From Delphinapterus leucas (Eukaryota; Chordata; Mammalia; Artiodactyla; Monodontidae), in contig NW_022098001.1 of the NCBI RefSeq assembly GCF_002288925.2, forward strand, positions 6,362,256-6,426,255: a stretch of DNA of 64,000 nucleotides. Reading direction: 5' to 3'. The position numbers and the translations under genes were made by a program. The notes below the pieces were generated by a model. It saw nothing but the letters and a program-made list of their open reading frames with translations. It was not told the DNA's origin and searched no databases. Shown piece after piece: positions 12,412 through 54,320 of this stretch. Positions within the stretch are counted from its first letter, which is position 1. Each line of letters starts with the position of its first letter.

Positions 12412-12442
<31 letters not shown>

Positions 12443-15116: not shown

Positions 15117-15174
15117 ACAAGAAACACAAGAGAAGGAAAAGACCTACAATAACAAACCCAAAACGATTAAGAAA

Positions 15175-18100: not shown

Positions 18101-19000
18101 ATCTTAGAGGAAAACATAGGCAGAACACTCTATGACATAAATCACAGCAAGATCCTTTTTGACCCACCTCCTAGAGTAATGGAAATAAAAACAAAAATAT
18201 ACAAATGGGACCTAATGAAACTTCAAAGCATTTGCACATCAAAGGAAACCGTAAACAAGAAAGAAAGACAACTCTCAGAATGGGAGAAAACCTCTGCAAA
18301 TGAAGCAGCTGACAAAGGATTAATCTCCAAAATATACAAGGAGCTCATGCAGCTCAATATCAAAAAAACAAACAACCCAATCCAAAAATGGGTGCAAGAC
18401 CTAAATACACATTTCTCCAAAGAAGTTAAACAGATTGCCAACAAACACATGAAAGGATGCTCAACATCACTAATCATTAGAGAAATGCAAATCAAAATGA
18501 CAATGAGGCATCACCTCACACCAGTCACCTCGGCCATCATCAAAAAACCTATAAACAATAAATGCTGGAGAGGGTGTGGAGAAAAGGGAACACTCTTGCA
18601 CTGTTGGTGGGAATGTAAATTGATACAACCACTATAGAGAACAGTATGCAGGCTCCTTTAAAAAACTACAAATAGAAGTACCATATGACCCAGCAATCCC
18701 ACTACTGGGCATATACCCTGAGAAAACTATAATTCAAAAAGAGTCATGTACCAAAATGTTCATTGCAGCTCTATTTACAATAGCCAGGACATGGAAGCAA
18801 CCTAAGTGTCCATCATCTGATGAATGGATAAAGAAGATGCGGCACATATTTACAATGGAATATTACTCAGCCATAAAAAGAAACGAAATTGAGTTATTTG
18901 TAGTGAGGTGGATGGACCTAGAGTCTGTCGTACAAAGTAAGTCAGAAAGAGAAAGACAAATACCATATGCTAACACATATATATGGAACCTAGGGGGAAA
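15175..19000 (+). pseudogene. L1 ORF2 (endonuclease-reverse transcriptase), multiply disrupted
   Basis: ORF2p supplies the nickase and reverse transcriptase for L1 movement. ATG 15175 opens an intact endonuclease domain (early ITLNVNGLN, later QETH, SDHNAM) up to 15996, where about 2 extra bases cause a frameshift. Further lesions are a stop near 16110 (cga to tga), a disturbed frame near 16160, a stop at 16636-16638, a frameshift near 17308 just after the RT motif FADDMILYI (about 17272-17298), and a stop at 18056-18058. The Cys-rich C-terminus is recognisable to about 19000. No functional protein can be made. Confidence 0.88.
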
Positions 19001-19370
19001 AAGATGTCATGAAGAACCTAGGGGTAAGACGGGAAAAAAGACACAGACCTACTAGAGAATGGACTTGAGGATATGGGAAGGGGGAAGGGTAAGCTGTGAC
19101 AAAGTGAGAGAGTGGCATGGACATGTATACACTACCAAACGTAAAATAGATAGCTAGTGGGAAGCAGCCGCATAGCACAAGGAGATCAGCTCGGTGGTTT
19201 GTGACCACCTAGAGAGCTGGGATAGGGAGGGTGGGAGGGAGGGAGACGCAAGAGGGAAGAGATATGGAAACATATGTATATGTATAACTGATTCACTTTG
19301 TTATAAATCAGAAACTAACACAGCATTGTAAAGCAATTATACTCCAATAAAGATGTTAAAAATATATATA

Positions 19371-20719
19371 CAAGCAGCTCATGCAGCTCAATATCAGAAA
19401 AACAAACAACCCAATCCAAAAATGGGTGGAAGACCTAAATAGACATTTCACCAAGGAAGACATACAGATGGCCAACAAACACATGAAAGGATGCGCAACA
19501 TGACTGAATCACTAGAGAAAGGCAAATCGAAACCACAATGAGGTATCTCTTCACACCGGTCAGAATGGCCATCATCAAAAAATCTACAAACAGTAAATGC
19601 TGGAGAGGGTGTGGAGAAAAGGGAACCCTCTTGCACTGTTGATGGGAATGTAAATTGATACAACCACTATGGAGAAGAGTATGGAGGTTCCTTAAAAAAC
19701 TAAAAATAGAACTGTCATACGACACAGCAATCCCACTACTGGGCATATACCCTAAGGAAACCATAATTCAAAAACAGATATGTATCACAATGTTCACTGC
19801 AGCACTATTTACAATAGCCAGGACATGGAAGCAACCTAAATGTCCGTCGACAGATGAATGGATAAAGAAAATGTAGCACATATACACAATGGAATATTAC
19901 AGCCATAAAAAGAAACAAAATTGAGTTATTTGTAGTGAGGTGGATGGACCTAGAGTCTGTCATACAGAGCGAAGTAAGTCAAAAAGAGAAAAACAAATAC
20001 CGTATGCTAACACATATATATGGAATCTTAAAAAAAAATAAATAAAGGTTCTGATGAACCTAGGGACAGGACAGGAGTAAATACGCAGACGTTGAGAATG
20101 GACTTGAGGACACGGGGCGGGGAAAGGCGAAGCTGGGACGAAGTGAGAGAGTGGCATGGACATATATACACTACCNNNNNNNNNNNNNNNNNNNNNNNNN
20201 NNNNNNNNNNNNNNNNNNNNNNNNNNNNNNNNNNNNNNNNNNNNNNNNNNNNNNNNNNNNNNNNNNNNNNNNNNNTGTCATATAGAGCGAAGTAAGTCAG
20301 AAAGAGAAAAACAAATACCGTATGCTAACACATATATATGGAATCTTAAAAAAAAATAAATAAAGGTTCTGATGAACCTAGGGACAGGACAGGAGTAAAT
20401 ACGCAGACGTTGAGAATGGACTTGAGGACACGGGGCGGGGAAAGGCGAAGCTGGGACGAAGTGAGAGAGTGGCATGGACATATATACACTACCAAATGTA
20501 AAATAGATAGCTAGTGGGAAACAGCCGCATAGCACAGGGAGATCAGCTCGTTGCTCTGTGACCACCTAGAGGGGTGGGATAGGGAGGGGAGGGAGGCTCA
20601 AGAGGGAAGGGATATGGGGATATATGTATACATATAGCTGATTCACTTTGTTATACAGCAGAAACTAAAGCAACATTGTAAAGCAATTATACTCCAATAA
20701 AGATGTAAAAATTTAAAAG
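19371..20719 (+). mobile_element. Second, 5'-truncated L1 3' fragment nested in the tail of the first
   Basis: Just after the first L1 tail (…aaaaatatatatacaag) the text returns to the C-terminal part of ORF2 (cagctcatgcagctcaatatc) and runs through another 3'UTR to a tail at about 20700-20719. Its 3'UTR differs in many bases from the first, so it is a separate element, probably inserted in the A-rich tail. It contains the 100-N gap. Confidence 0.8.
19958..20493 (+). repeat. 218-bp duplication flanking a 100-N assembly gap
   Basis: 19958-20175 and 20276-20493 are the same 218 bases with an offset of 318; I see only about two differences (tacagagc/tatagagc and tcaaaaag/tcagaaag). The gap 20176-20275 is exactly 100 N, the usual placeholder for unknown size. 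This looks like an assembly duplication. Confidence 0.85.
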
Positions 20720-20731
20720 AGTATGTAGCTC

Positions 20732-20800
20732 ATAGGATTAAATGGATTAATTCAAGTAAAGTTCTTAGCACAGTTCCTGGGCCAATAGACATTAGCAGGA
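20732..20800 (+). mobile_element. MIR SINE, third piece (tail)
   Basis: Text 'ataggattaaatggattaattcaagtaaagttcttagcacagttcctgg' is the MIR 3' part and joins directly to the piece ending at 11743. Confidence 0.75.
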
Positions 20801-22389
20801 GCAAGGTCTTAGAGGCCATGATGAGGGGTTCAGATTGTATGAGAGACAGTTCTAGTGGTAGTATGGAGAAACAAGTAGAAGACAGGCAAGAAGCAGGGAT
20901 ACTAGCTAGAGAGCTTTCGCAAATATTCGGTCAAGAGCTGGTGATAGAGCATGGACCTGGTTAACGGAGTTGGAGGTAGTTCAAGTTTGGAGGAAACTAG
21001 AGCAGGGGTCATGGAGGAAAAATATTTAAGCTGAGCCTTGAAGGAAGATATTTCCAAGGGAACCTTGGAAAAAAGGATAGATGACATGTCTTGAGCAGTG
21101 AATAGTCAATGTGGTAATGGAACAAGAAGTGGAAGAGGAAGTTGAAAGATTGAGACCAGAAAGATGAGTACTTTCAGAGCCTTACTTAACCTGTCTATTT
21201 GATGCATAAAAGAGCAGTGAGAGAAATTAATAGAACAGAAAGACATGACTATGTCTTAGGACTGACAGAGGAAGACCAGTCAGATAAGAGGATCAAAGAA
21301 AAAGGGGTTATCAACCATGTAAATATTTTGGTAGGATGAAGATTAATGCCACTGATAACTTGAGGCAGATTCAAATTGTAGCAGCTGAAGACAGATTGCA
21401 AGCAACTAAGCAGGTGGGGAAAACTGCAAGTCTTCATTTCACTACAGGCTCTTTCTTGGATTTCAGCAGATAAAGGTAAAGAACTTTAGCTTGAAAAAAG
21501 TACTAGGAGTCTAGGAGGCAGAGGCTGACAAAGGGAAAACCAGAACATGACTGTAGGAGAATGCTTGAAGATTAAGATGCAGGGCAAGAGAAAAAGAAAA
21601 AAAGCTGCTGGAGCTCTGTACCAGAGAATGAACATAAGGTACAGTGTGATCCAAGGCAATGATGGAAACCATGCTTTGTGAAAAGAAGGCTATCAAGCTT
21701 CAATATGTGTTTTTGCCATGGCAATTTTAAAGACTCATGTTTTTATATAAACACCACACTAAAGAAGGAATATCACAAGTGACTTCATGAATCATCAGAA
21801 TGGGAATTTGCTCTTGAATGTGAACACTTTACTGAATATAAAATCCTCTAGATAAAGTTTCACTTTTGTAGCAAGGTCTCTTTGATTATAAGATCACTTA
21901 TAGAAATTAAATCGTTTCACATTATTTTACCTTTTTATTTTCTAAAAATGTGTTAGGTAACATGCAGAAAATATGTGAATTTCGGGGTTACCTAGAGTCT
22001 TAAATTTCTTTGAGTAAGTAGGAAATAGACTCTGGAAGTACCTATAATGAATACCTGTTATATGGCTGCCCAGTATCTATTTTTCTTCCTTCTTGGAGTA
22101 ATAGCCTGAATTTCTTTTCAGTACCTACCCCGTCTCTCCATTCTCACCGTTGTGATTTAGTTGGAAAATGGGCCTCACCTGCCCCAGAGAAAGGCCCTGA
22201 TTCATAGAGCCAATCTGAATGTGCCATCTCTGAATGTTTTGGAACTGGCACGATTACCTAAGTTGGTAAGTTGGTCCAATCAGTGACTCTTAGACACTTT
22301 CGCTGAATATATGATATAGATTCTCTGTTTCACAAAAAGGATTCATGTAATTCTTAGAGTTCCTCAAAGTCAGTTTAGGATTATGAACT
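20801..22389. other. Gene-free stretch with old repeat remnants
   Basis: 'aggtcttagaggccatgatgaggggttcagatt' (about 20802) and similar text to about 21500 look like pieces of an old, widely dispersed mammalian repeat, partly the same family as 4280-4560. No coding frame is convincing. Confidence 0.4.
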
Positions 22390-22411
22390 GGGGGGTGGGG
22401 GGGAGGGAGGG
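22390..22411 (+). other. Potential G-quadruplex sequence
   Basis: Four or more G runs separated by single bases (six G, T, seven G, A, GGG, A, GGG) fit the G-quadruplex pattern. It lies about 1.5 kb upstream of the SETD2 retrocopy. Confidence 0.45.
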
Positions 22412-23503
22412 AGTTTGTCCAAAAACAGTCAACGCCAGGGAAGTGACAGTTAAAAACTGAAAGAAACTAGGTTCTAAGTCACATTTTGTGAGCGTCTAGT
22501 CTCACTCCTAGCCACACGTATCTCTGTGGTTTCAAAGGAAGTTAATTGGTTCGCTCTATGTAAGCCATTCTCAGTTGGGTTTTTCTATTAGTTGCTGTAC
22601 TTGAAAGCTTCCTAGGTGACAGAATCTGTGATCTAGACCCTAAAGCCTATGTGTCACTTTTCCATCAGCTGTCAGGATGTTGGTGAACTCGTCTATGGAA
22701 ATAGATGTCATTTTTATGAAAAGTGAGCATTTTGGGACCCTTATGTATGTTGTATAGGTTCTTTAAAACGTTTAGTTTTACAGAGAAACTTTTTTTTTAT
22801 AATAAAGATATTCAACTCACCATGAAAATCATAAGAGACTTAGAAAAATAACTAAAACCTGCTTATAGTTGAAGGCCCAACTACACAAAAGTTGGATTTG
22901 AAGGTTGTCCCTTATCTATTTTCTGACAGCAAATATTGCAGGATTGTTTGTTTATATTAATGTAAGTTTCAATATATGTTAATTATGAATAGAACAAGCC
23001 TAGAAAGCGATAAAACCAATTCACACTCAACTTGTCAAAAGAAATAGTAACAAGCTTCTTCCCTTAAGTGAAGCATGTTAACCTCTTCCGTACCCAGGTT
23101 CTAAAGTAATTCATAAGTAGACAAGAGGTATGTGGAACATGATGTATTATCTTTATTACTAATAACCCTCATTCTCTAATTTCAGCCTTATATCTGTGTA
23201 AAAGAGGGCTTCCTTACACTGAGCCCCATAATGATACAGACATACGCATCCAGCCACAGACAGCACTGGGCCCAGACTATTTTGCCGCCTGCGCTTGTAA
23301 GACTTATGGAGAAATGGGGCCCAATGCATGCTTTCTGTGAGCAGCTTATTCCCAAAGAGAGGGGAGAAAGTGCTACTCATGCTCACTTCTTTGTTTCAAA
23401 CTCAAGCTAGTCATCACACCTCTACCAATCTAGGTCCAACCAGGAGACAGAACATGGTAAATTTAACCAGAATTGTTAAGCTATAATAGAGTGAAATAAA
23501 TAC
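22412..23503. other. Gene-free stretch upstream of the retrocopy
   Basis: No gene, CpG island or repeat family recognised. If the SETD2 retrocopy is transcribed, its promoter would be expected here or in the following repeat; no TATA box in a convincing setting was found. Confidence 0.4.
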
Positions 23504-23735
23504 AATTACCCCTCTGTATCCACGGGTTCTGCACCCCGGATTCAACCAACCGTAAACTGAATAGCAGTAGATTGAATCCTCGGATGCAGAATCCTCCAAT
23601 GTGGAGCCCCGGGGTACTGAGGGCAGACTGTACTACTCCATTTTATATAAGAGACTTCAGCAATCGCAGGGGACTGGGCGGGCAGGGGGAGCCTTAGGAC
23701 CAATTCCTTGCTCATGCTGAGGGATGACTGCATGT
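23504..23735. repeat. Old repeat with inverted ends (probable DNA-transposon fossil)
   Basis: Text begins 'tacccctctgtatccacgggttc' and ends 'ctgagggatgactgcat', with 'ccattttatataagagactt' inside, matching a common mammalian repeat. Family name not assigned. It ends about 200 bp before the SETD2-like sequence. Confidence 0.5.
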
Positions 23736-24890
23736 TGAGAACTCTTAACAGTATCCTAGGGCAGAGGGAGAGTACCCAAGGAAAGGCAAGCTTGGAAGAG
23801 GATCCCCGTCTGGCATTCATACCTCTGATGGAATAAAATTTAAAGGCAGGACAAAAAAAATTAAACACGGAATTCTGTTCGGGCCTTCTCCCTCCCTAAT
23901 GCCCAGTGTGCATCTGCATTACACATTAAGCAGAGCTCCTGAAATCTTCACGATCTAAAACAGAGAGATGATAAATCTTTTAGCTACTCAAAACTTGAAA
24001 GAGATACTCGTTATATATCTTCTCGCTGTAGATCAGAGAGAGAGCAAAGGCGGAGCAGGTCTCGTTTAAATCTGACAGAGGTTCTAGAACTACTTCATCC
24101 TATTCTCGGTCAGAACGGTCCCATTATGACGACTCTCATTATGATGGTCGTTACCATAGGAGCTCCCCTTATCGAGAGAGGGCACGCTAGTCTCGGCCAT
24201 ATACCAATAACAGGGCAAGACTGATGGATACTGTAAAACTGAGTCCTCTTACTTAGAGATGGAAAAAAGAGGAAAGGATTCTTCAAAATTAGAAGGAGAA
24301 TCCAAAAGGACTTCAGAAAATGAAGCAATGAAAAGATGTTATTCTCCCACTAATGAACAGGGATTCCGACGCGGGTCATCATATTCCAAGCACGGTAAGA
24401 GTGCTTCCCGTTATAAATCTGCCCCTTCAAAACCTGCACCCAAGTCTGATAAATTTAAAAATTCTTTCTGTTGTACAGAATTGAATGAGGAAATCAAACA
24501 GTCTCATTCTTTTCGTTTACAGACTCCTTGTTCTAAAGGTAGTGAATTAAGGGTGATTAGTAAAGTTCCTGAAAGAGAGAAGATCGGGTCTCCATCTCCA
24601 TCAAATCGATTAAATGATTCACCTACTTTTAAAAAGCTACATGAATCACCTGTTTTTAAGTCTGAATTTATAGGACATGATAGCCATGATAGTATTAAGG
24701 AATTAGACTCTTTATGTAAAGTGAAGAATGATCAATTACGAAGTTATTGTCCCACCGAATTTAATACAAACGGATCTCCTGGGGCCGAATCTGATTTGGC
24801 AGCATTTTGCGCTTCTAAACGTGACACTGTTTTGATGTCTTCTGATGATAGTGTGACTGCATCAGAGGTTCCCCTTTGGTCAAAACGTGC

Positions 24891-27800
24891 ATGCTTTCAT
24901 CAAATGGATTTCAAAACATTAATAGATGTAAAGAAAAAGACTTGGATGATACTCGCATGCAGCATAGTAAGTCAGAAAGCACATTTAGAGAAACAGAACC
25001 TCCAGTGTCGCCACACCAGGATCAACTCATACCTTTGCCAGTTATGACTATAGATTATTCCGAAACCATAGTTAAAGAACCAGTTGATGTGAGAGTTTCT
25101 TGCTGTAAAACCAAAGATTCAGATATATACTGTACTTCAAACGACAACCGTCCTTCTTTGTGTCATTCCGGAGCTGAAAATACTGAGCCTTTAGTAACAA
25201 AGATTTCTTCAAATAGCTTTATGAATGTGCATTTGAAATCAAAAACAGTTATATGTGATAATGGAAGTCTGACAGATCAGCACTCAAAATTTGCATGTGG
25301 AGAATATAAGCAGAGTGTTGGTAGTACTAGTTCAGCTTCTGTTAATCATTTTGATGATTTATATCCACCTACAGGGAGCTCATGTATTGCTTCATCTCTT
25401 CAGAGTCTTCCAGCAGGGACAAACGTAGACAGTTTAACTCTCTTGCAATGTGGAGAGAATACATCTCCAGTTTTGGATGCTGTGCTGAAGAGTAAAAGCT
25501 CAGAGTTTTTAAAGCATGCAGAGAAAGAAATAATAGAAGTAGCTAGTGGCCTTCCTGATTCAGGAAGAGGATTTGCTTCCTGGGAAAACAGGCATAATAA
25601 TGGACTATCTGGGAAATGTGTGCAAGAGGCTCAAGAAGAAGGGATCTCCATACTGCCTGATAGAAGAGGAAGACCAGAAATCTCTTTAGATGAAGGAGGT
25701 GGAAGACGACATGCACATACTTCTGATGACTCAGAAGTTGTATTTTCTTCTTGTGATTTGAATTTAATCATGGAGGACAGTGATGGTGTAACATATACCT
25801 TAAAATGTGACAGTAGTGGTCATGCCTCAGAGATTGTATCCACTGTCCATGAAGACTATTCTGGTTCTTCCGAAAGTTCAAGAGATGAAAGGGATTCGGA
25901 AGATACAGATTTTGATGATAGCAGTATTCCAAGAAACCGTCTTCAGTCTGTTGTGGTTGTGCCAAAGAATTCTACTTTGACCTTGGAAGAAACAAGTCCT
26001 TCTTCTTCTCAGAGCAGTCAAAGTTACAGACACTATTCTGACCACTGGGAAGATGAGCGATTGGAGCCAAGGAGGCATTCATTTGAGGAAAAATTTGAGA
26101 GTATAGCAAGTAAAGCCTGTCCTCAAACTGAGAAGTTCTTCTTTCATAAAGCAACAGAGAAGAATTCAGAAATCTCTTTTACACAGCCCAGCCGAAAACA
26201 GATAGATAATCACCTGTCTGAAATTGCTCATCCTCAGAGTGATGGGGTTGATAGTACAAGTCATACAGACATAAAATCTGACCCTCTAGGTCACCCAAAT
26301 TCTGAGGAAGCAGCAAAAGCCAAAATAACTTCTAGGCGGCAAGAAGAGCTGCCAGTTTATTCTCCTGATGATTCTGAAGATGTCTCAAGTAAGTCTCGGC
26401 AACAGGCCACTTTCCCTAACAGGCCAGATAGTAGACTGGGAAAAACAGAGTCAAATTTTTCTTCTTGTGAGATCTCCCGAGTGGATGGTTTCCGTTCATC
26501 ATCGGAAGAGCTCAGAAATCTAGGGTGGGACTTCTCTCAACAAGAAGAGCCTACTACCACATATCAGCAACCTGACCGCAGCTGTGGAGCCTGTGGTGGA
26601 CACAAGTATCAGCAAAGTGCAGAACAGCATAGCGGGACAGGTAATTACTGGCAAGGCAATGGCTACTGGGATCCAAGATCAGCAGGTAGGCCGCCTGGAA
26701 CTGGGGCTGTGTATGATCGAATTCAAGGGCAGGTACCAGATTCCTTAACAGATGACCGTGAAGAGGAGGAGAATTGGGATCAACGTGGAGGATCTCACTT
26801 TTCAGGCCAGTCCAATAAATTTTTTCTGTCCCTTCAGAAGGACAAGGGGTCAGTGCAAGCACCTGAAATAAGCAGCAATTCCATTAAGGACTCTTTAGCT
26901 GTGAATGAGGAGAAAGATCTTTCGAAAAACTTAGAAAAAAATGATAGGAAAGATAGAGGGCCTCTTAAAAAAAGGAGACAGGAATTGGAGAGTGATTCTG
27001 AAAGTGACGGTGAGCTTCAGGACAGAAAGAAAGTTAGAGTGGAGGTAGAGCAGGGAGAGACAGCAGTGCCTCTAGGCTCAGCATTGGTTGGGACTTCGTG
27101 TGTCATGGAGGACTTCAGGGACCCAGAGCGGTGGAAGGAATGTGCCAAACAAGGGAAGGTGCCTTCTTACTTTGATCTGATTGAAGAAAATGTTTATTTA
27201 ACAGAAAGAAAGAAGAATAAATCCCATCGGGATTTTAAGCGAATGCAGTGTAAGTGTACACCCCTTTCTAAAGATGAAAGAGCTCAAGGTGAAATAGCAT
27301 GTGGGGAAGATTGTCTTAATCATCTCCTCATGATTGAATGTTCGTCTCGTTGTCCAAATGGGGATTATTGTTCCAATAGACGGTTTCAAAGAAAACAGCA
27401 TGCAGATGTGGAAGTCATACTCACAGAAAAGAAAGGCTGGGGCTTGAGAGCTGCTAAAGATCTTCCTTCGAACACCTTTGTCCTGGAATATTGTGGAGAG
27501 GTACTTGATCACAAAGAGTTTAAGGCCCGGGTAAAGGAGTATGCACAAAACAAAAACATCCACTACTATTTCATGGCCCTGAAGAATGATGAGATAATAG
27601 ATGCCACTCAGAAAGGAAATTGCTCCCGGTTCATGAATCACAGCTGTGAACCAAACTGTGAGACTCAAAAATGGACTGTGAACGGACAACTGAGAGTTGG
27701 GATTTTTACCACCAAACTGGTTCCTTCAGGCTCAGAGTTAACATTTGACTATCAGTTCCAAAGATACGGCAAGGAAGCACAGAGATGTTTCTGTGGGTCG

Positions 27801-30437
27801 GCTAATTGCCGGGGTTACCTGGGAGGAGAGAACAGAGTCAGCCTCAGAGCAGCAGGACGGAAAATGAAGAAAGAACGATCTCGGAAGAAGGATTCGGTGG
27901 ATGGAGAGCTAGAAGCTCTGATGGAGAATGGTGAGGGTCTCTCTGATAAAAACCAGGTGCTCAGCTTATCCTGGCTAATGGTTAGAATTGAAACTTTGGA
28001 ACAGAAACTTACCTGTCTCAAGCTCATACAGAACACACATTCACAGTCTTGCCTGAAGTACTTTCTGGAACGTCATGGGCTGCCTTTGTTGTGGATCTGG
28101 ATGGCAGAACTACGTGATGGCCGGGAAAGTAACCAGAAGCTTCAGGAAGAGATTATAAAGACTTTGGAACATTTACCCATTCCTACCGAAAATATGTTGG
28201 AGGAGAGCAAAGTACTTCCTATTATTCAACGTTGGTTTCAAACCAAGACTGCTGTCCCTCAGCTGAGCAAAGGAGATGGGTATTCTAGCGAGAATACATC
28301 ACGTGCTCACACACCGCTCAACACACCTGATCCTTCCACCAAGCTGAGCATAGAAGCTGACACAGACACCCCCAAGAAGCTAATGTTTCGCAGACTTAAA
28401 ATTATAAGTGAAAATGGCATGGACAGTGCAATTTCTGATGCTACCAGTGAGCTAGAAGGCAAGGATGGCAAAGAGGACCTTGACCAGTTAGAAAACGTCC
28501 CTATAGAAGAAGAGGAACAACAGCTACTCACACAACAGCTACCTGAATCTAAAGTTGATAGTGACATTGCTGTGGAGGCCATTAAGCTACCCACATCTGA
28601 ACCAGAGGCTGACACTGAAATAGAGCCTAAAGAGAGCAATGGCACAAAACTAGACGAACCTATTGCTGAGGAAACACCATCCCAAGATGAAGAGGAGGGT
28701 GTATCTGATGTGGAGAGTGAGAGGAGCCAGGAACAGCCACATAAAACGGTAGATATAAGTGATTTGGCCACCAAGCTCCTGGACAGTTGGAAAGACCTAA
28801 AGGAGGTATATCGAATTCCAAAGAAAAGGCAAACCGAAAAGGAGAGCACAATAACCAAACGAGGAAGGGATGCTGTTGGCTTCAGAGATCAAACAGTTGC
28901 CCCAAAGACTCCTAACAGGTCAAGAGAGAGAGACCCAGACAAACAAACTCAAAATAAAGAGAAAAGGAAACGAAGGGGCTCCCTCTCACCACCACCTTCT
29001 GCCTATGAGCAGGGAACAAAAAGGCCAGGTGGCAGATATGATACACCAACTTCTAAAAAGAAAATACGAATTCAAGATCGCAATCAACCTTCTACAGAGG
29101 AGTGTCGAAAGTTGTTTGAGCAGGAGGTAGCTCAGCGGGAGGCTCAAAAACAACAGCAGCAGATGCAGAACCTGGGAATGACGTCTCCACTGCCCTATGA
29201 CTCTCTTGGCTACCATGCCCCTCATCACCCCTTTGCTGGCTACCCACCAGGTTACCCCATGCAGGCCTATGTGGATCCCAGCAATCCTAATGCTGGAAGG
29301 GTGCTCCTCCCCACACCCAGCATGGATCCTGTGTATTCTCCTTCTCCTTATGATTATTCTCAGCCCTTGGTGGGACATTCTACAGAACCCCTTGCTGCCC
29401 CTCCACCTGTGCCCGTGGTGCCACATGTGGCAGCCCCTGTGGAAGTTTCCAGTTCACAGTATGTGGCCCAAAGTGATGGTGTGGTACACCAAGACTCCAG
29501 GGTCACCGTCCTGCCAGTGCCAGCCCCAGGCCCAGTCCAGGGACAGAATTATGGTGTTTGGGATTCAAACCAACAGTCCGTGAGTGTACAGCAGCAGTAC
29601 CCTCCTGCACAGTCTCAAGCAATCTTATATTATCAAGGACAGGCTGCTCCAACTGTCTATGGTGTGACGTCACCCTATTCACAGACAACTCCACCAAGTG
29701 TACAGAGTTACGCCCAGCCAAGTCTTCAGTACATCCAGGGACAACAGATTTTCACAGCTCACCCACAAGGAGTGGTGGTACAGCCAGCCACAGCCGTGAC
29801 TCCAATAGTTGCACCAGGGCAGCCTCAGCCCTTACAGCCACCTGAAATGGTTGTGACAAATAACCTCTTGGACTTACCACCCCCATCTCCTCCCAAACCA
29901 AAAACCACTATCTTACCTCCCAACTGGAAGACAGCCCGAGACCCAGAAGGGAAGATTTACTACTACCATGTGATCACAAGGCAGACTCAGTGGGATCCTC
30001 CTACTTGGGAAAGCCCGGGAGATGATGCCAGCCTTGAGCATGAAGCTAAGACGGACCTGGGAACCCCAACATATGATGAAAATCCCATGAAGACCTCAAA
30101 AAAGCCTAAGACAGCAGAAGCAGACGCCTCCAGTGAGCTGGCTAAGAAAAGCAAACAAGTATTCAGAAAAGAGATGGCCCAGTTCATCGTCCAGTGCCTG
30201 AACCCTTACTGGAAACCTGACTGCAAAGTGGGAAGAATTACCACAACTGAAGATTTCAAACACCTAGCTCGCAAGCTGACTCACGGCGTTATGAATAAGG
30301 AGCTGAAGTACTGTAAGGACCCCGAGGACCTGGAGTGCAATGAGAACGTGAGACACAAAACCAAGGAGTACATTAAGAAGTACATGCAGAAGTTTGGGGC
30401 TGTTTCCAAACCCAAACGGGACACTGAATTAGAGTGA
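24891..30437 (+). CDS. N-terminally truncated SETD2-like retrogene ORF (1,848 aa)
   Basis: The first ATG of the long frame is at 24891 (the frame opens slightly earlier, without ATG); the stop is TGA at 30435-30437. SETD2 trimethylates histone H3 Lys36 on RNA polymerase II-transcribed genes and also methylates tubulin. Domains in order: a long disordered acidic/serine part; AWS (about 782-836, Cys pattern kept); SET (about 838-955) with GNCSRFMNHSCEPNC (catalytic Arg codon 27627-27629) and FDYQF (Tyr codon 27750-27752); post-SET CFCGSANC; a Gln/Pro-rich part; WW (about 1673-1706); SRI (from about 1750) ending DTELE as in SETD2. Several changes fall in normally invariant positions, for example Trp (30210-30212) where I recall Arg in the SRI domain. 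Start contexts are weak at 24891 and better at 25045. Whether it is expressed is unknown; it could be a young pseudogene. Confidence 0.7.
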   Translation: MLSSNGFQNINRCKEKDLDDTRMQHSKSESTFRETEPPVSPHQDQLIPLPVMTIDYSETIVKEPVDVRVSCCKTKDSDIYCTSNDNRPSLCHSGAENTEPLVTKISSNSFMNVHLKSKTVICDNGSLTDQHSKFACGEYKQSVGSTSSASVNHFDDLYPPTGSSCIASSLQSLPAGTNVDSLTLLQCGENTSPVLDAVLKSKSSEFLKHAEKEIIEVASGLPDSGRGFASWENRHNNGLSGKCVQEAQEEGISILPDRRGRPEISLDEGGGRRHAHTSDDSEVVFSSCDLNLIMEDSDGVTYTLKCDSSGHASEIVSTVHEDYSGSSESSRDERDSEDTDFDDSSIPRNRLQSVVVVPKNSTLTLEETSPSSSQSSQSYRHYSDHWEDERLEPRRHSFEEKFESIASKACPQTEKFFFHKATEKNSEISFTQPSRKQIDNHLSEIAHPQSDGVDSTSHTDIKSDPLGHPNSEEAAKAKITSRRQEELPVYSPDDSEDVSSKSRQQATFPNRPDSRLGKTESNFSSCEISRVDGFRSSSEELRNLGWDFSQQEEPTTTYQQPDRSCGACGGHKYQQSAEQHSGTGNYWQGNGYWDPRSAGRPPGTGAVYDRIQGQVPDSLTDDREEEENWDQRGGSHFSGQSNKFFLSLQKDKGSVQAPEISSNSIKDSLAVNEEKDLSKNLEKNDRKDRGPLKKRRQELESDSESDGELQDRKKVRVEVEQGETAVPLGSALVGTSCVMEDFRDPERWKECAKQGKVPSYFDLIEENVYLTERKKNKSHRDFKRMQCKCTPLSKDERAQGEIACGEDCLNHLLMIECSSRCPNGDYCSNRRFQRKQHADVEVILTEKKGWGLRAAKDLPSNTFVLEYCGEVLDHKEFKARVKEYAQNKNIHYYFMALKNDEIIDATQKGNCSRFMNHSCEPNCETQKWTVNGQLRVGIFTTKLVPSGSELTFDYQFQRYGKEAQRCFCGSANCRGYLGGENRVSLRAAGRKMKKERSRKKDSVDGELEALMENGEGLSDKNQVLSLSWLMVRIETLEQKLTCLKLIQNTHSQSCLKYFLERHGLPLLWIWMAELRDGRESNQKLQEEIIKTLEHLPIPTENMLEESKVLPIIQRWFQTKTAVPQLSKGDGYSSENTSRAHTPLNTPDPSTKLSIEADTDTPKKLMFRRLKIISENGMDSAISDATSELEGKDGKEDLDQLENVPIEEEEQQLLTQQLPESKVDSDIAVEAIKLPTSEPEADTEIEPKESNGTKLDEPIAEETPSQDEEEGVSDVESERSQEQPHKTVDISDLATKLLDSWKDLKEVYRIPKKRQTEKESTITKRGRDAVGFRDQTVAPKTPNRSRERDPDKQTQNKEKRKRRGSLSPPPSAYEQGTKRPGGRYDTPTSKKKIRIQDRNQPSTEECRKLFEQEVAQREAQKQQQQMQNLGMTSPLPYDSLGYHAPHHPFAGYPPGYPMQAYVDPSNPNAGRVLLPTPSMDPVYSPSPYDYSQPLVGHSTEPLAAPPPVPVVPHVAAPVEVSSSQYVAQSDGVVHQDSRVTVLPVPAPGPVQGQNYGVWDSNQQSVSVQQQYPPAQSQAILYYQGQAAPTVYGVTSPYSQTTPPSVQSYAQPSLQYIQGQQIFTAHPQGVVVQPATAVTPIVAPGQPQPLQPPEMVVTNNLLDLPPPSPPKPKTTILPPNWKTARDPEGKIYYYHVITRQTQWDPPTWESPGDDASLEHEAKTDLGTPTYDENPMKTSKKPKTAEADASSELAKKSKQVFRKEMAQFIVQCLNPYWKPDCKVGRITTTEDFKHLARKLTHGVMNKELKYCKDPEDLECNENVRHKTKEYIKKYMQKFGAVSKPKRDTELE

Positions 30438-31318
30438 CCTTCAGGGCCAGGGTGGGAGGACGGGCAAGCTGGTAGGAGGGACTCTGGGGAGAAGAAACCC
30501 CGTGGGCCCTCTCTCCCCACCCCACTGTCAGGGCTGTGCTACTCATGACACATCACCCTGGGGAATTCAAACCTGCAGAATGAGCTCACAAAAATGAGCT
30601 CCATCTACAACAAGCGGTCCCTGGTTGTGAGCTGTTGGTAGAGGCCATCTGAGGCAAGAGTTTAGGCCCTTGAGACCTTCCCTTCCGAGATCCCGGCCAA
30701 GCCTGACCCCACTCTCAAGGCTGGGTCTCCTCCTTGGCGGTGCTGTCAGCACACAGACTCATGTGCATCCCCACCCACGACCCCTTACCCTGACGATCTG
30801 TATTATATTTTAATGTCTATGTGAATATATTGAAAATAATTTGTCTTCCCTGGTTTTTGGCTTTTGTTTTGCTTTTAAGCCTCTGCGTGCTAGGATCACA
30901 GAAGACTTTGTAAGGATGGTTTAAGTTCTCCTGCAAGGTTTAATGTGTTATCATGTAAATATTCCAGAGCAGGCTGTCTTGTGGTTTCGGCCAGCCTTGT
31001 GCTATGTTGATAAGATTGATTTACTGCTTAAAATCACTTTACTTGGGCTTCCCTGGTGGCGCAGTGGTTGAGAGTCCGCCTGCCAGTGCAGGGGACGCAA
31101 GTTCGTGCCCCGGTCTGGGAAGATCCCACATGCCGCGGAGCAGCTGCGCCCGTGAGCCATGGCCACTGGGCCTGCTCGTCCGGAGCCTGTGCTCCTCAAC
31201 GGCAGAGGCCACAACAGTGAGAGGCCCGCGTACCGCAAAACAAAACAAAAACATCACTTTACTTTATCCAATTTTTACTGAACTTTTTATGTAAAAAATA
31301 GAATCAATTAAAGAAAAA
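30438..31318 (+). other. 3'UTR of the SETD2 retrocopy
   Basis: Non-coding text after the stop, matching SETD2 3'UTR style to 'gaatcaattaaag' and a short A run at about 31312-31322. A CHR SINE (31045-31252) interrupts it. The A run has no second transcript-like sequence after it, so it is read as the retrocopy's poly-A tail. Confidence 0.75.
31045..31252 (+). mobile_element. CHR-type SINE in the retrocopy 3'UTR
   Basis: Complete SINE from gggcttccctggtggcgcag to an A-rich end, flanked by the perfect 12-bp duplication atcactttactt (31033-31044 and 31253-31264). Confidence 0.95.
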
Positions 31319-31329
31319 AAAAAGGGTAA

Positions 31330-32656
31330 GTCTATGCCTTCAAATTCTAACAGGTGGAAGAGTTCTCAGTGCTTTCTGAGAATCTGCTTCCCAGGTTATA
31401 ATACTCAGTTTGGCACCAACAGAATTCCCTTTTTCTTAACTTGATAGTTAATTGAATTTTGGAGAAGGTGCGGTTGCAGACAACCACTGGCTGGTGAGAA
31501 AGTTTGCTGGGTTGCCTGTGCCAGAACTGGTTTAGGGTCATCTGATAAACAGGAAACAATCACCTAGGACACAGGCAAGCCAAGGCATGTAAGCAGGTTG
31601 CTGAGGAAGCTGGGATGTTTCTGCGGGTGCCAAGCCAGAGCAGACATCGCCCACCTTGGAAAGGTCTCAGGAACAGCCCTGCAGGGGCCAGGAAAGTCAG
31701 GCCTGGTCATGCTTGGGAGTGTGCGTGGTGAGGGCTGTGGGTTGCTACAGCATGAAGCCAGAAGCACGCGGTGTGCCTCTTAAGACCGCAGCAAGGTGAT
31801 CACCAAGGCTTCTGGGCTGGAGCTACAAGGTAGTCAAAGCACTGAGCACTCTGGGTGTGCAACTGGAGAATGAATTTGGAGCTGGGAAGCAATAAGTTCA
31901 TAGGCATCTCAGTCGACCCCTTTGACTTCTCAGCTTTCATATGCACCATTCTACACACATTTCAACGCCTGCCCAGCAAAGAAACTACATTTTAGCAAGA
32001 AACAGCTAACCCTCTGATAAGTGAAGTTCTTGCCCTTCTCCCAGGTAAAACACAAACCCCAACGGTCATTGAATCCATTGCTGCCTATATTAATTAGGCC
32101 TCAATTTCAGTCTTAGGTCCCACTAAAGACTACATTGTAAAGTTAACCTCCACCTAGTGTTATATAAAATTAAAATGGGAAGGAGAAGTTAGAATAAACA
32201 CATACATATAACAGAAAACATGCAAAGCTACCAGTCCTGGTTTCTGTAGTTATTCACAAGGTCAGAGTTGACATCTATAGCTTCCACCTTCACCCACTTA
32301 TTCCCTGTTTTCCTTGCCCACAGCCAGAACCCACAGCTCCATCCAGATTCTTTACTGGTAGAATGATTCAATCCTTCCCTTCTGAATGGTCTGAATCCTC
32401 AATTGTCCTGCCTTTTTCCAGTTCCTGTAGCTTTCCATTGATCTTTACTGTTGGCATGGAAGTATTGAAAGGAACCTCAGAAAATCTCCTGGGTTCCAGA
32501 GAAAATCTCCTGGGTTCCAGAGGAAATCCTCCTTGCTTCCATTATAAAGGCAACCAATTTCCTGCGGTAACTGAGATCATAACACCAGTAGATTAACCTT
32601 TTTCACCTGTTGGTTCAGTGGTATAAGGAGTGTAAGATGGCCAGGGGGCAGTCTGT
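31330..32656. other. Gene-free stretch downstream of the retrocopy
   Basis: No gene or named repeat seen. It holds a 21-bp tandem duplication (agaaaatctcctgggttcc twice, about 32479-32520). Confidence 0.4.
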
Positions 32657-32900
32657 GGTAGGCAGAATTCTAAGATGGATCCCACAATTCCTGCCCCTTG
32701 GGGTAAACACCAGTGTCATTTCCTTTGAGCACTGTAGGGACCTGTAAATACCATTGGATATCACCTTCATGATTATACAACAATATGGCAAAAGGAATTT
32801 TGCAGATGAAATTAGGGTCCCTAAACAGCTGACTATAATTCAATGGGAGATTATCCTGGGTGGGTCCAACCTATCTAATCAGGCAAGTCTTTTAAAAGCA
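32657..32900 (+). repeat. Ancient repeat, left half
   Basis: Text 'ggtaggcagaattctaagatggatccc... gagattatcctgggtgggtccaacctatctaatcagg' is a common old mammalian repeat of several hundred bp. Its right half is at 37746-38095; the two halves share aaaagca at the break (32894-32900, 37746-37752). Confidence 0.6.
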
Positions 32901-32975
32901 AAAGTTCTATTCTCCAGGATAGATCACATGCTAGGCCACAAGACAAGTCGCAGTAAATTGAAGATTAAAATCATA
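32901..32975 (+). mobile_element. Old L1 ORF2 fragment, left of the ERV insertion
   Basis: Encodes the endonuclease segment FSRIDHMLGHKTS. It is interrupted after tcata (32971-32975) by a provirus and resumes at 35363 with the same five bases and the SDHSAMRLEI part. Confidence 0.85.
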
Positions 32976-33394
32976 TGTTGGGCTGCACCCCACAGGCCTG
33001 CAAGGCTTGTAGTTGCCAGCCTCAAGACTGAAGAAAGAGCCTAGAGACAGCAACAGAGACATCAGTGACTTATCGGACAAGGGATCTTACACACCTGAAG
33101 CAAGGTCCTGGAGCAACACCTCACAGTTTGTGGCAGACAGCAAGCAGGACATGGCAGCAGTCTTTGCTACCCGGGGGAGGAGGAGGCTACCATTTATAGG
33201 GGGAGTTAACGGTCAGGTTGGCTCATAAATCACCAGAGAGACCAGCAGCTGGGCCAGGAAGCAAGCACATAGGCAGTTACTAATTAAGCCCTATAATTAA
33301 GAAGATTGGAGAGTCATGTGAGTGAAGCAGGTACTGGCTGAACAGGGGATATACAGAGCAAGAGGACAGTCATCTTGAATGGCATGGTCAAACA
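32976..33394 (-). repeat. 3' LTR of the provirus
   Basis: Shares long stretches with the partner LTR: agagacagcaacagagacat, gaagcaaggtcctggagc, ggctaccatttatagg, gcagttactaattaagccct, agagtcatgtgagt. It is shorter than its partner on the TG side of the + strand. Confidence 0.8.
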
Positions 33395-34237
33395 CTCCAC
33401 CCTTACATACCCTGTATGACCTCTATAATCTTGGCCCATACTTCTTCTGCTATATCCCCGAGGACAGGTAGGTAGAAGTGCAACTGCAACCAAATACCAC
33501 AAATGCAATAGAGACAGTCCAACAGGTGGGCAAGCTTTGGAACCAGGAGCTTATCAAGTCAATTTTTCATGGACTCTCAGAGGTTGACAATGGCATTTTG
33601 CTGTAGAGCCAGCAATCAAACTCACTTCTCAGTGAGGCCACCATTGTCACCCAGTCCACAAACAGATTCCCTTCACTCAGAGTAGGAGAAGCTGCAAGAT
33701 GACTAACAGGCACAATATAGGGAAGATCATGACCATTAAGCAAAATACAAGCAGTAACATCATTCTGAGGTAATGCCACCCCTGTCTACTCATTTTGTCC
33801 TGGCCTGCAATACCATACGACCTGCCCACCCTCAGTCTCCATAGCCAGTGCCGAATACAGGAGAGGTGGTGTAACAGTGCACAGGGTTAGCATAATGGTG
33901 CCTTTGGACAGTAGAGGCCTGGATTAATTACCTTAGTAATCTGAGGTGGGGCTGGGTAGAAGACAGGTGAAATCTGTAAATCCCTTTCTGATCCTATTCC
34001 CCAATGGGACAGCAAACCCAAACCACTGAGGACTTACCTGCCAGTCCTCAGGGCTATTTATAATATGTTCCCCTGGGGATAGATCCTGTGAAGGGCAAAA
34101 ATGAGTTGCTGTCCAGACCTGTAGTTGGCAACAGTCCTTCGGTGGTCAACAGTTGAACTCGAACAGTGCTGACTAGTTACCTCCGGGTTAACGTGGCATC
34201 GGCACTGGGATAAATGCTCCTGAGATGTGTCCACGTG

Positions 34238-34891
34238 TTAAGAGTGAGTTTCCCACCTCAACTGTTGTTTAAGTAGTCTCTTCATAGCCCGGTAGCAGTG
34301 GGGTTGTAAGACAGGTGGAAATGCCCCATATGTCCTTTGTATCGGCCCATTCCTGAACTTCATGGCCAATAAAGTAGATTCCTTGGTCACTATTGATGTC
34401 CACGGGGATCCTATATGTTGCATACAAATGAATAGTGGTTTTTTGCATGCTCAAAGAATCGGGTAGGTTTTTTGTAATGACTCCCACCTGTTGTAATGTA
34501 TCGTAGACTGCATATAGCTGTTGTTCCATCACACTCTATCATTGCTCTACACCCTTCTATAATTGGGACCAGAAGCCCAAGGGCACTCTTATTATGTTGC
34601 TGTTGCCACAGACCTCAACCAAACGCTCCTGGGTAATGGGCCATGTTAATTCACAAGTCTGTCTCTGAATTCATATCCCTAAAGCCTGTGTCTCTAATTG
34701 TTTAGGGGTGGTAGTTCAGGGGTATGCTTGTATTTTGTAGATAATCCAGGTCCTTGAGTTTTGTCTCTATTCACCAGCCACCCCCATGTAGTCAGATGAA
34801 CGAGGAGCACTGGGCTGCTACTTTTAAACTGGGAAAAGACTGAGGTTAACAGGATATCATCAACATAATGGAAGAAAAAGACATCTCTCAT
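34238..34891 (-). pseudogene. Degenerate ERV pol (reverse transcriptase and integrase remnants)
   Basis: On the - strand, 34694-34891 contains the RT active-site motif YVDD followed by the usual downstream region. 34269-34532 contains an integrase-like stretch with the Asp-Gln-Gly pattern of the catalytic core. The pieces are in different frames, with a deletion or decay between them, and no full domain remains. Confidence 0.7.
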
Positions 34892-34904
34892 GGTACACAG
34901 CTAC

Positions 34905-35362
34905 CACAAGGCCCCACATGCTAGTAGACGGCCTCCTCCCGATCACCTCCACAACTTTCTGTTTCCCGTCCTTATGTCCTGACATCTCAGCTCCCAGGAG
35001 TTTTCTCACCCAGAGACAGCAACAGAGACATCAGGGATTTATTGGACAAGAGAAACTTACACATGAAGCAAGGTCCTGGAGCGACACCTCACTGTGCGTG
35101 GCAGACAGCAGGCAGGACATGGCAGCAGTCCTCACCACTCCGGGGAGAAGGCGGCTACCATTTATAGGGTGAATTGACGCCAGATTAGCTCATCAATTAC
35201 CAGGGAAACCAGCAGCTGGGGCAGGGGGCAAGTAGGTAGGCAGTTACTAATTAAGCCCTATCATTAAGAGGATTAGAGAGTCATGTGAGTAAAGCAGGGA
35301 CTGGTTGATGAGGGGAGGTACAGAGAGCAAGAGAACAGCCATCTTGAGGGCCTGACCATACA
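34905..35362 (-). repeat. 5' LTR of the provirus
   Basis: On the - strand it shows a TATA box (tttata at 35161-35166 on +) and a polyadenylation signal (tttatt at 35038-35043 on +) in the correct order. It ends in ca at 35361-35362. The inner boundary is approximate. Confidence 0.75.
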
Positions 35363-36530
35363 TCATAGCAAGCATCTTTTCTGACCACAGTGCTATGAGA
35401 CTAGAAATCAACTACAAGGAAAAAACTACCCAAAACACAAACACGTGGAAGCTAAACAATATGCTACTAAACAACAAACTGGCCATTGACGACATCAAAG
35501 AGGAAATAAGAAAATACCTGGAGACAAATGAAAATGAAAACACAATCCAAAATCTATGGAATGCAGCAAAAGCTGTTCTAAGAGAGTTTTATAGTGATAC
35601 AAGTCTACCTCAGAAAGCAAGAAAAATATCAAATCAACAATCTAACCTTACATCTAAAGGAACAACAAACAATACCCAAAGTTAGTTAAGGAAAGATATC
35701 AAGATCAGAGCAGAAATAAATGAAATAGTGACTAAAAAAAAAAATAGAAAAGATCAATGAAATTAAGACCTGGTTCTTTGAAAAGATAAACAAAATCGAT
35801 AAACCTTTAGCCAGACTCATCAAGAAAAAAAGAGAAGGCCCCCCCAAATAAAATCATAAACAAAAAGGCACAGTTACAACAAACACTACAGAAGTACAAA
35901 GGATCATAAGAGATTACAATGAACAACTATATGTCAATAAAGTGGACAAACTAGAAGAAGAGGACAAATTCCAATAAAGGTACAATCTCCTGACTGGATC
36001 AGGAAGAAGTAGAAAATATGAACAGATGAATGACCAGGAATGAAATTGAGTCTGTAGTAAAAAATCTCCCAACAAACAAAAAATCCCAGACCAGATGGCT
36101 TCACAGGTGAATTCTACCAAACATTTAAAGAACAGTTAACATCTACCCTTCTCAAACTATTTCAAAAAACTGCAGAGGAAGGAACTCTTCCGAACTTATT
36201 CTACGAGGCCAGCATCACCCTGATACCAAAACTAGACAAACAGAACACAAGAAAACAAAATTACAGGCCAATATCACTGATGAACACAGATGCAAAAATC
36301 CTCAACAAAATATTAGCAAACTGAATTCAACAACACATTAAGAGGATCATACACCATGATCAAGTGGGATTTATTCCAGGGATGAAAGAGATTCAATACC
36401 TACCAACCAATCAGTGTGACACACCACATTAACAAACTGAAGAATAGAAATCATATGAACAGCTCAATAGATGAAGAAAAATCTTTTGACAAAATTCAAC
36501 ATCTATTCACACACAAAAAAAGGCCACCTA
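35363..36530 (+). mobile_element. Old L1 ORF2 fragment, right of the ERV insertion
   Basis: Continues the ORF2 copy of 32901-32975 through the endonuclease/RT linker (KARKISNQQSNLT) and the first part of RT (…[19 protein letters not shown] text near 36085-36130) with many stops. Near 36510-36530 it jumps to L1 3' end sequence, so the middle and end of ORF2 are deleted. Confidence 0.8.
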
Positions 36531-37165
36531 CTGAATGAAAGAAGATATTTACAAAGACAAATATTGTTCGGTTTCACTTATATGTGGAATCTAAAAAACA
36601 AAACAAATGAATAAGCACAACAAAACAGAAACAAGAGTCATAGATTCAGAAAACAAATAGCTGGTTGCCAACCAGACTTATCATGGCGATTATTTTGAAA
36701 TGTATAGAAATATCGAATCACTATATTGTACAAAAGGAACTAACATAGCGTTGTAGGTCAATTAGGTTTCAAAAAGAAACAGACAAACTTATGGAAAAAG
36801 AGATCAGATTTGTGGTTACTAGGGGTGGGGACTGAGGGGAGGGGGAAGTGGATGAAAATAGTCAAAAGGTACAAACTTCCAGTTATAGAAATAAGTACTA
36901 GGGATGTAATGTACATGACAAATGTAATTGACACTGCTGTATGTTATCTGTGAAGGCTGTTAAGAAAGTAAGTTCTCATCAGAAGGAGAAAAAAAATTTT
37001 TTCTCTTTCTTTTATTTCGTAACTATATGAGATGATGGAGGTTCACTAAACTTATTGTGATAATCATTTCAAGATGTACTTAAGCCAAATCATTATGCCA
37101 TGCACCTTAAACTTATACAGTGCTGTATGTCAGTTATATCTCAAGGAAACTGGAAGGAAAAAAAA
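36531..37165 (+). mobile_element. Two L1 3' tails in tandem
   Basis: 'acttatatgtggaatctaaaaaacaaaac...' to about 36775 is one L1 3' end; 'ggggtggggactgagggg... cttatacagtgctgtatgtcagttatatctcaa' to about 37165 is another. Both are old L1M-type tails. Confidence 0.65.
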
Positions 37166-37745
37166 GTTTCATAAGATCCCATGCTGGCTAGGGTAGGGAG
37201 AACAGAAATTCTCCAACACTATTGGCAGGAGTGAAAATTGTCATAATAATTGAGGGTAAGTCAGTGATATATCAAAATTTGAAACATGCTTCCTCTTGGA
37301 CCCAGGGATAATTTGCCCTACAGGCACTCTTGAAGAAATGCCCCAGGACATACTGTGTGTGCAAGGAAATTTCACTGCAGCATTGTTTGAAACAGTGGGA
37401 ATAGAAAGCAATGTTAACCGTCAGTCACTAGGGTCTAGCTAACTAAATGATGATCTATTACTACAATGGAATGCTGTGCAACTGTTTACGAGGATGAGGT
37501 AAACATACATTTGTCTACATGAAAAGACATTCTTGGGACTTCCCTGGTGATCCAGTGGTTAAGACTCTGTGCTTCCACTGCAGGGGGGAACGGGTTCGAT
37601 CCCTGGTCGGGGAACTAAGATCCTGCATGCTGCACTAGTGGCCAAAAAAAAAAAGACAAAAAAACAAAAAAAATCCCACAAAACAACAACAACAAAGATG
37701 TTCTTAATGTTAAATGAAAGATAAAAACATGTTTCAGAACACTAA
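37166..37745 (+). mobile_element. Very old L1 fragment
   Basis: 'ctacaatggaatgctgtgcaactgttt' and 'cactgcagcattgtttgaaac' are old L1 ORF2 C-terminal text. The SINE at 37535-37695 interrupts it. Confidence 0.55.
37535..37695 (+). mobile_element. tRNA-Glu-derived SINE (short type)
   Basis: Head gggacttccctggtgatccagtggtt, box B-like gggttcgatccctgg, A-rich end. Similar 10-bp duplications (agacattctt 37525-37534, agatgttctt 37696-37705) flank it. Confidence 0.85.
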
Positions 37746-38095
37746 AAAAGCAGAAGAGTTCTCTTGCTAGTCTGGAAGCAAAACAGCCATATTGAGATAG
37801 GAGGGGCTGCGTGGCAAGGCCCTGAGAACGACCTCCAGGTGCTGAGAGCCATCCCCAGCTGACAGCAAGAGAACAGGGACGTTAATCATGCAGCTGCAAG
37901 GCACCGAGTTCTGCTAACGACCACATGACCTGTGCAGAGGACCCTGAGCCCCAGATGAGATTGCAGCCTCAGCCAACACTTTGATTTCAGCACGGTGACA
38001 CCCTGAGCAGAGGACTCAGCTAACCTGTGCCTAGATCCTTGACCCACAGAAACCAGGGGATAAAGACATTTCTGTTATTTTAAACACATAGTCTC
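37746..38095 (+). repeat. Ancient repeat, right half
   Basis: Continues the repeat of 32657-32900 with 'gtggcaaggccctgagaacgacc', 'gctgacagcaagagaacaggga', 'caacactttgatttcagc' and the end 'gacccacagaaaccaggggataaa'. The break is the insertion site of the L1/ERV block. Confidence 0.6.
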
Positions 38096-38521
38096 ATCTT
38101 CCAATTCTGTGGAAACATTGTTGTATCCCCTGGCAGAAGCATTCCCTTATTGGATACTTAGATATCCAAACCAGCAGAGCTCAAAGTTGTCAGGACAGGA
38201 AGCAAAAATCTGCAAATGGGTTATAAGATGTAATAGTGAGAGAAGCCACTTCCACTTCTGCCATTTGTATTCTGGCTATAGGAGCGAGAACACCATGTAA
38301 TGCTTTCTGATCCAAAGCATATACTGCACCTGTAAGACAGAACCCCATTCTTTCGGGATGTTGTCTACCAACTGGTACCATCAATGAGTCCTCAGTAAGC
38401 CATTTCCCCTCTCATTTAGGCCAGTCACTCCCAGGTGATGGGGGATGTGGAAAGACGAGTTTATTCCATGGGACAAGCCCTATCGCTGCACTTCTTCGCT
38501 GTGACATGAAGTTTCTTGATC
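38096..38521. other. Gene-free stretch
   Basis: No gene or named repeat recognised. Confidence 0.4.
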
Positions 38522-38540
38522 AGAAACAATGCTGTTTAGA

Positions 38541-38748
38541 GACTTACCTGGTGGTCCAGCAGTTAAGACTCCGCGATCCCAATGCAGGGGGGCCTGGGTT
38601 CAATCCCTGGTCAGGGAACTAGATACTGCACATCGCAACTAAAGATACCGCACGCGGCAATGAAGATCCCACATGCTGCAACTAAGAACCAGCACAGCCA
38701 AATTAAAAACAAAAAATTATATATATATATATATATTTATGTATAAAA
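38541..38748 (+). mobile_element. tRNA-Glu-derived SINE with an (AT)n tail
   Basis: Head gagacttacctggtggtcc, box B-like gggttcaatccctgg, tail with a ttatatatat run (38717-38737). Flanked by imperfect duplications of agaaacaatgctgtttaga (38522-38540 and 38749-38766). Confidence 0.88.
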
Positions 38749-38769
38749 GAAACAATCCTGTTTAGAATG

Positions 38770-41344: not shown

Positions 41345-54320
<12,976 letters not shown>

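Follow-up and report, generated by a model that had tools for sequence, protein, structure and literature searches.

SETD2 is an H3K36 methyltransferase, and the human protein without residues 1-1403 is reported to be stabilised, with H3K36me3 raised (PMC7542105). The human variant R1740W is described as a recurrent pathogenic variant with a predicted gain of function (PMC10630252). SETD2 has also been placed among the adaptively evolving genes of marine mammals, in a study of downloaded coding sequences whose species include Monodon, Phocoena sinus and Physeter (PMC10993460). Among the papers listed by searches of open-licence literature, none has a title or abstract opening that describes the present copy. 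The copy described here lies in a window of 64,000 nucleotides (the whole stretch of DNA that was analysed, C10:6,362,256-6,426,255) of the Delphinapterus leucas genome, which was searched as a 2.35-Gb assembly of 324 contigs. The copy and its coding parts are the following.

23941..31323, forward strand: SETD2 retrocopy, 5'-truncated within parental exon 3 and including the 3'UTR and an A tract (parental exon matches)
24891..30437, forward strand: open reading frame (ORF) of 1,848 codons plus stop (ORF listing)
27291..27395, forward strand: AWS domain (Pfam above cut-off, residues 801-835)
27435..27755, forward strand: SET domain (Pfam above cut-off, residues 849-955)
29913..30002, forward strand: WW domain (Pfam above cut-off, residues 1675-1704)
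30165..30410, forward strand: SRI domain, with Trp at human position 2490, which is Arg in the Tursiops parent (Pfam above cut-off, residues 1759-1840)

The ORF listing agrees with the single 1,848-codon frame put forward in the preliminary description, and the uninterrupted frame that contains it (24876-30437, forward strand) has 1,853 codons when counted from a TTG and 1,848 from the ATG at 24891. The domain content first claimed also stands: AWS, SET, WW and SRI are recovered by Pfam, a post-SET region is found beside them, and phmmer aligns ORF residues 722-1848 end to end with solved structures of human SETD2 (9egz, 2385 bits). By the phmmer offset, the ORF lacks about the first 710 residues in human numbering. 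With the same numbering, the ORF retains R1625, N1628, H1629 and Y1666, together with Cys at 1499, 1501, 1516, 1520, 1529, 1533, 1539, 1631, 1678, 1680 and 1685, which we take to be the catalytic and zinc positions of SETD2. The catalytic positions are thus kept as claimed, yet this is weak evidence, because 97 of the 1,847 codons compared (about 5%) differ from the parental cetacean protein and about one change would be expected by chance among 15-20 key residues. Taken at face value, the presence of the domains, catalytic residues and zinc cysteines would favour a working second H3K36 methyltransferase in the form of an N-terminally shortened, stabilised SETD2. The reported stabilisation of human SETD2 by removal of its N-terminal part (PMC7542105) points the same way. 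At about 97% identity to the parent, domains and catalytic residues say little, and an open frame with full domains can mislead; sister copies and conserved-residue tests are informative where domain matches are not.

The description of the locus as an intronless copy of most of SETD2 is borne out by the genome, where the ORF matches, besides itself, three SETD2 loci and a short stretch of C78. The parent on C29 has many exons spread over about 80 kb, most of them bounded by GT/AG and some with ends in N runs, whereas the copy on C10 is contiguous. The two are 96-97% identical over most aligned exons, and 138 of 4,451 comparable ORF bases differ (DNA about 97% identical); this comparison covers 4,451 of the 5,544 ORF bases, the remaining ∼20% being N or trimmed or unmatched exon ends, with parent matches of 88% identity or less dropped along with 4 bases at each match end. 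One 34-base match that was kept (27197-27230, 88.2%) crosses an exon joint and could inflate the tally of parent differences by as many as 4; both sister copies read N there, so the region lies outside the polarised counts given below. The C78 stretch (G000:C78:86494416-86494507) matches 92 bases of the SET region at 80% and is perhaps a related methyltransferase gene.

The match to parental exon 3 begins at 23941 (C29:30991795), and the 3' end reads ATTAAAG followed by A10 at 31314-31323, so that the copy carries the poly(A) end of a processed retrocopy. A search for a target-site duplication found no word of at least 8 bases common to both retrocopy ends except A8; such a duplication may have decayed. 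A repeat interrupts the 3'UTR, and the 5' end is marked by a second frame and a deletion.

31045..31251, forward strand: putative SINE-type repeat interrupting the retrocopy 3'UTR (13 seed matches in the window, itself included)
24259..25047, forward strand: upstream frame of 262 codons from ATG 24259, in the context GAG then ATGG (-3 G, +4 G)
24870..24870 (about), forward strand: one-base deletion in the window copy that removes 211 N-terminal codons (C2 and the parent are one base longer; C3 is deleted here)

Between 23941 and 24890 the SETD2 homology persists in broken frames and is out of frame at several points. The ATG at 24259 is likely the original start of the retrocopy frame, and the SETD2-like proteins of Delphinus and Kogia begin at the corresponding Met. 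The deletion at about 24870 splits the 24259-25047 frame from the long ORF, and the upstream frame now overlaps ATG 24891 out of frame. The context of ATG 24259 is strong and that of ATG 24891 is weak (-3 T, +4 C); under the scanning model, initiation at ATG 24891 should be poor if the locus is transcribed from upstream.

The window copy has two sister copies in the same genome, C2 (C10, ∼17.40 Mb, minus strand) and C3 (C24, ∼25.04 Mb, minus strand), and the following features relate the three.

12100..39820, unstranded: segmental duplication unit that includes the retrocopy (collinear 91-98% matches through both retrocopy flanks)
28516..28517, forward strand: site of an in-frame 12-bp deletion common to the window copy and C2 and absent from C3 and the parent (copy alignment)

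The unit matches C10:17.389-17.414 Mb (minus) and C24:25.026-25.050 Mb (minus), ∼25 kb each with the retrocopy included; its left edge falls at about 12.1-14.7 kb, and its right edge at 37,966 in C2 and 39,823 in C3. Because the similarity of C2 and C3 to the window extends past either end of the retrocopy, the copies were spread by segmental duplication and not by three retropositions, and the duplicated retro-locus is present at least three times in the genome. Decayed L1-like sequence occupies 13900-20700 (forward strand), mostly within the duplicated unit, and a Pfam scan of flanking frames matched one of ten, an L1-type endonuclease (frame 15103-15993). In the same L1-like region, at 19958-20493, a 100-N assembly gap (20176-20275) is flanked by 218-bp stretches that share 99% identity, which points to contig ends that were left unmerged. 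Elsewhere in the window, 52501-53500 has a GC content of 64-75%, a CpG observed/expected ratio of 0.5-0.8 and open frames on both strands; five frames scanned there gave no Pfam match, and the segment may be the CpG island of a gene. An Rfam scan of the whole window at gathering thresholds returned no match.

Both sister copies are damaged in the part homologous to the ORF. Among the 1,587 comparable codons of C2 there are 5 stops, along with 7 clean frameshifts; C3 shows 6 stops among 1,501 comparable codons, 2 clean frameshifts and a deletion of 1,128 bp that covers the start. C2 and C3 have one stop position in common, and the frameshift counts exclude two indels beside N runs (C2 at 25715, C3 at 26841). 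The window copy has no stop and no frameshift within 24891-30437. A neutral model, in which the indel rate was finally calibrated on the duplicon's own flanks, roughly predicts the damage in the sisters (C2, 4.6 stops and 8.9 frameshifts expected against 5 and 7 seen; C3, 2.8 and 2.3 expected against 6 and 2 seen). For the window copy's own branch it gives ∼3.5 stops and ∼6.9 frameshifts, and the joint probability of seeing none is ∼1.3e-4. The window flanks carry 13 private small indels in 9,684 aligned bases, 12 of them not multiples of three, and the ORF carries none (P 0.003); the ORF row of C3 in this alignment was left out, being misaligned by the 1.1-kb deletion of C3, whose values come from separate comparisons. 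A calibration on eight SINE copies (2 indels per 199 differences, 32 of these being Ns in one copy) was rejected for subfamily and CpG bias, and in ten long repeat pairs gap openings numbered 78 against 1,131 mismatches (∼0.07).

None of the 19 distinct disabling changes of the three copies lies in the window ORF (P ∼5e-4, or 1.5e-3 when tripled because the most intact of three copies was picked), which agrees with the view taken earlier that so long an intact frame is unusual in a retrocopy. These figures would suit a retrogene in which selection acts on the frame and not on SETD2-like catalysis: the locus would be expressed, truncation would be harmful or a bulk disordered product useful, and most residues would be free to change. 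From the sequence we judge such a frame-constrained retrogene unlikely, as 211 codons have already been lost to a frameshift, ATG 24891 stands in a weak context under an overlapping upstream frame, and no amino-acid constraint was detected in the window copy. The open-frame P values (1.3e-4 to 1.5e-3) are a local calibration, and the case was picked for its intact frame from among many retrocopies, so chance is still a plausible cause of the open frame.

Purifying selection on the window protein was detected neither by dN/dS nor by the sparing of conserved residues. When polarised by the parent and the sisters, the private changes of the window copy number 66, comprising 43 nonsynonymous, 23 synonymous and no stop changes, against 45.3, 17.8 and 2.9 expected. 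The dN/dS of its own branch is 0.73 (0.43-1.27), an interval that includes 1 and allows moderate constraint, and as far as these data go the ratio is near 1, the outcome that the preliminary description had named as telling against function; the broken sisters have 1.08 (C2) and 1.01 (C3), and the window copy does not depart from them (Fisher p 0.33 for nonsynonymous against synonymous changes, p 0.06 for stops). Residues that are invariant in 24 vertebrate orthologs received 47 of the 97 codon changes, where 48.3 are expected without selection, and five held-out real orthologs have 0, 0, 2, 3 and 3 changes at such residues against 45-73 expected. The test rests on these held-out controls, an earlier run having been circular with Cervus and Capra in both training and controls. 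The DNA-polarised changes give the same picture, with 21 of 43 at invariant residues in the window copy (20.4 expected), 29 of 66 in C2 (31.6 expected) and 19 of 36 in C3 (17.9 expected).

By region, the 278 codons of the AWS-SET-post-SET block carry 12 changes (15.7 expected), the SRI domain 8 (mutational share 6.0) and the N-terminal part 37 (37.0). The substitution density of the ORF relative to the duplicon flanks is 0.94 in the window copy (p 0.37) and 1.08 in C2; it is 0.73 in C3 (p 0.02), though C3 is plainly broken. The changes in the window copy have a mean BLOSUM62 score of -0.16 where -0.40 is expected, and so are a little on the mild side; 9% of simulations were as mild. Since the dN/dS, invariant-residue and density tests all lie near neutrality, the window protein is without detectable constraint. 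This comparison lends no support to the proposal that the locus encodes a second, working H3K36 methyltransferase: the dN/dS resembles that of the broken sisters, invariant residues are hit at the unselected rate, and the start is weak. Within the catalytic block itself, 11 of the 12 changes fall at invariant residues, where 10.6 would be expected without selection, and Trp stands at codon 1740 as well as at 2490 in the SRI domain. Such an enzyme would be highly improbable at this locus.

Related proteins occur in other toothed whales. Among the best 120 of 253 database matches are 'SETD2-like' proteins of Delphinus, Kogia, Mesoplodon and Physeter, a 'hypothetical protein' of Monodon and an 'H3-lysine(36) N-trimethyltransferase' of Phocoena, all of which appear to be retrocopies. 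The Delphinus entry is marked LOW QUALITY, a label that NCBI gives to gene models with corrected breaks. The Mesoplodon protein covers 1,439 residues, and the Monodon, Phocoena and Physeter proteins omit parts of the frame; in a locus that has no introns, such omissions suggest that the annotators jumped over damage. The idea that all of these are orthologs of the window copy was ruled out by locus-private residues. The Monodon protein has 19 of 24 residues private to C2 but 1 of 12 private to the window copy; for the Phocoena protein the figures are 7 of 11 private to C3 and 1 of 8 private to the window copy. On these residues the former is assigned to C2 and the latter to C3. Of the four loci, the window copy is the closest to the Delphinus protein (76 of 1,170 residues differ, against 85 for the parent, 87 for C3 and 109 for C2), yet only 6 of its 27 private residues occur there. 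On inactivation in close relatives, which had been named as a further sign against function, the picture is mixed: the LOW QUALITY label falls on Delphinus, the nearest annotated relative, the Kogia protein is uninterrupted, and Monodon and Phocoena represent the sister copies.

In a tree built without the Monodon and Phocoena proteins, the five copies used group together (78/86, not starred), and the window copy, Delphinus and Mesoplodon are firmly grouped (99/96). The retrocopy probably predates the split of beaked whales and delphinoids, and the duplication probably predates the divergence of the narwhal, porpoise and dolphin families. At the odontocete rate of 9.1e-10 quoted in PMC4895049, the 1.5% private divergence would correspond to ∼16 million years since the duplication. 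Over all copy branches, with events mapped by simple parsimony and Physeter residues 786-800 and 1225-1330 (annotation joints) dropped, folded domains received 65 of the 369 inferred missense events (93.6 expected) and invariant residues 167 (191.0 expected). The Kogia branch is the main source of this signal (folded domains, 6 against 19.1 expected; p 1.2e-4, the lowest among the 9 branches tested), with the same lean in Mesoplodon (20 against 26.8, p 0.07) and Delphinus (12 against 17.0, p 0.10); the path to the window copy displays no sparing (folded domains, 22 against 24.3; invariant residues, 49 against 49.8). The Kogia breviceps copy (P0005), whose frame of 2,069 aa is likewise a point in favour of selection on the frame, would thus be the better candidate for a functional retrogene, and its derivation from the same insertion as the window copy is weakly supported (78/86).

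The copies also agree at one codon of medical interest in the human gene.

27972..27974, forward strand: TGG (Trp) where the human protein has Arg1740 (copy and protein comparison)

Trp is present at 1740 in each of the eight toothed-whale copies with sequence at this codon (window, C2, C3, Monodon, Delphinus, Phocoena, Mesoplodon and Kogia), Arg is present in the Tursiops and fin-whale parents, and the parent in the window's genome reads N. The Trp may have arisen by an early CpG transition. It is conceivable that a toothed-whale SETD2 retrogene was amplified by segmental duplication and that one copy per lineage, with a retained frame of 1.8-2.1 thousand codons, is expressed as a shortened SETD2 with Trp1740; we consider this quite unlikely. 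If true, such a copy would naturally modify H3K36 methylation in a dominant manner, and translation of the window frame, should it occur, would make whales a natural test case for shortened SETD2 with a change at codon 1740. A role at the RNA level would need no protein, the transcripts of the copies acting as antisense, sponge or small-RNA source for SETD2. The 96-97% identity to the parent and the presence of at least three genomic copies would be in line with it; such a role would not alone keep a reading frame open, and we regard it as very unlikely.

The reading that we favour, and hold to be probable, is that the window copy is a lucky, still-open member of a processed-pseudogene family and is not maintained as a methyltransferase. 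In an early toothed whale, reverse transcription of a SETD2 mRNA would have led to the insertion of a 5'-truncated copy, and segmental duplication would later have carried the retro-locus with its flanks to at least three places. All three copies of this genome would then have gained missense changes without detectable amino-acid constraint; C2 and C3 would have been broken by stops and frameshifts, and the window copy would have escaped both in 24891-30437, losing only the N-terminal 211 codons of the earlier frame. The intron-bearing parent, the common flanks, the damage in the sisters and the neutral pattern of change are observed directly; the retroposition machinery, the dates and chance, aided by the picking of the most intact case, as the cause of the open frame are what we infer from them. 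Whale retrocopies could be taken for the gene in comparative work that relies on database coding sequences of SETD2, and such mix-ups would be worth excluding in the whale SETD2 alignment of PMC10993460.

Compared with known systems, the window copy resembles processed pseudogenes in being intronless, 5'-truncated, provided with a 3' A tract, unlinked to its parent and neutral in its changes. It differs from them in a frame that is very long for its divergence, in its occurrence at no fewer than three places by segmental duplication with flanks, and in that a target-site duplication was not recovered. Like functional retrogenes, such as those reported for UTP14 and TP53, it is intronless with an open frame; unlike them, it has no detectable amino-acid constraint. 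With SETD2/Set2 H3K36 methyltransferases the ORF shares the AWS, SET, post-SET, WW and SRI regions and the catalytic residues, whereas it departs from these enzymes in the absence of ∼710 first residues, in the change of invariant residues at the unselected rate and in Trp1740.
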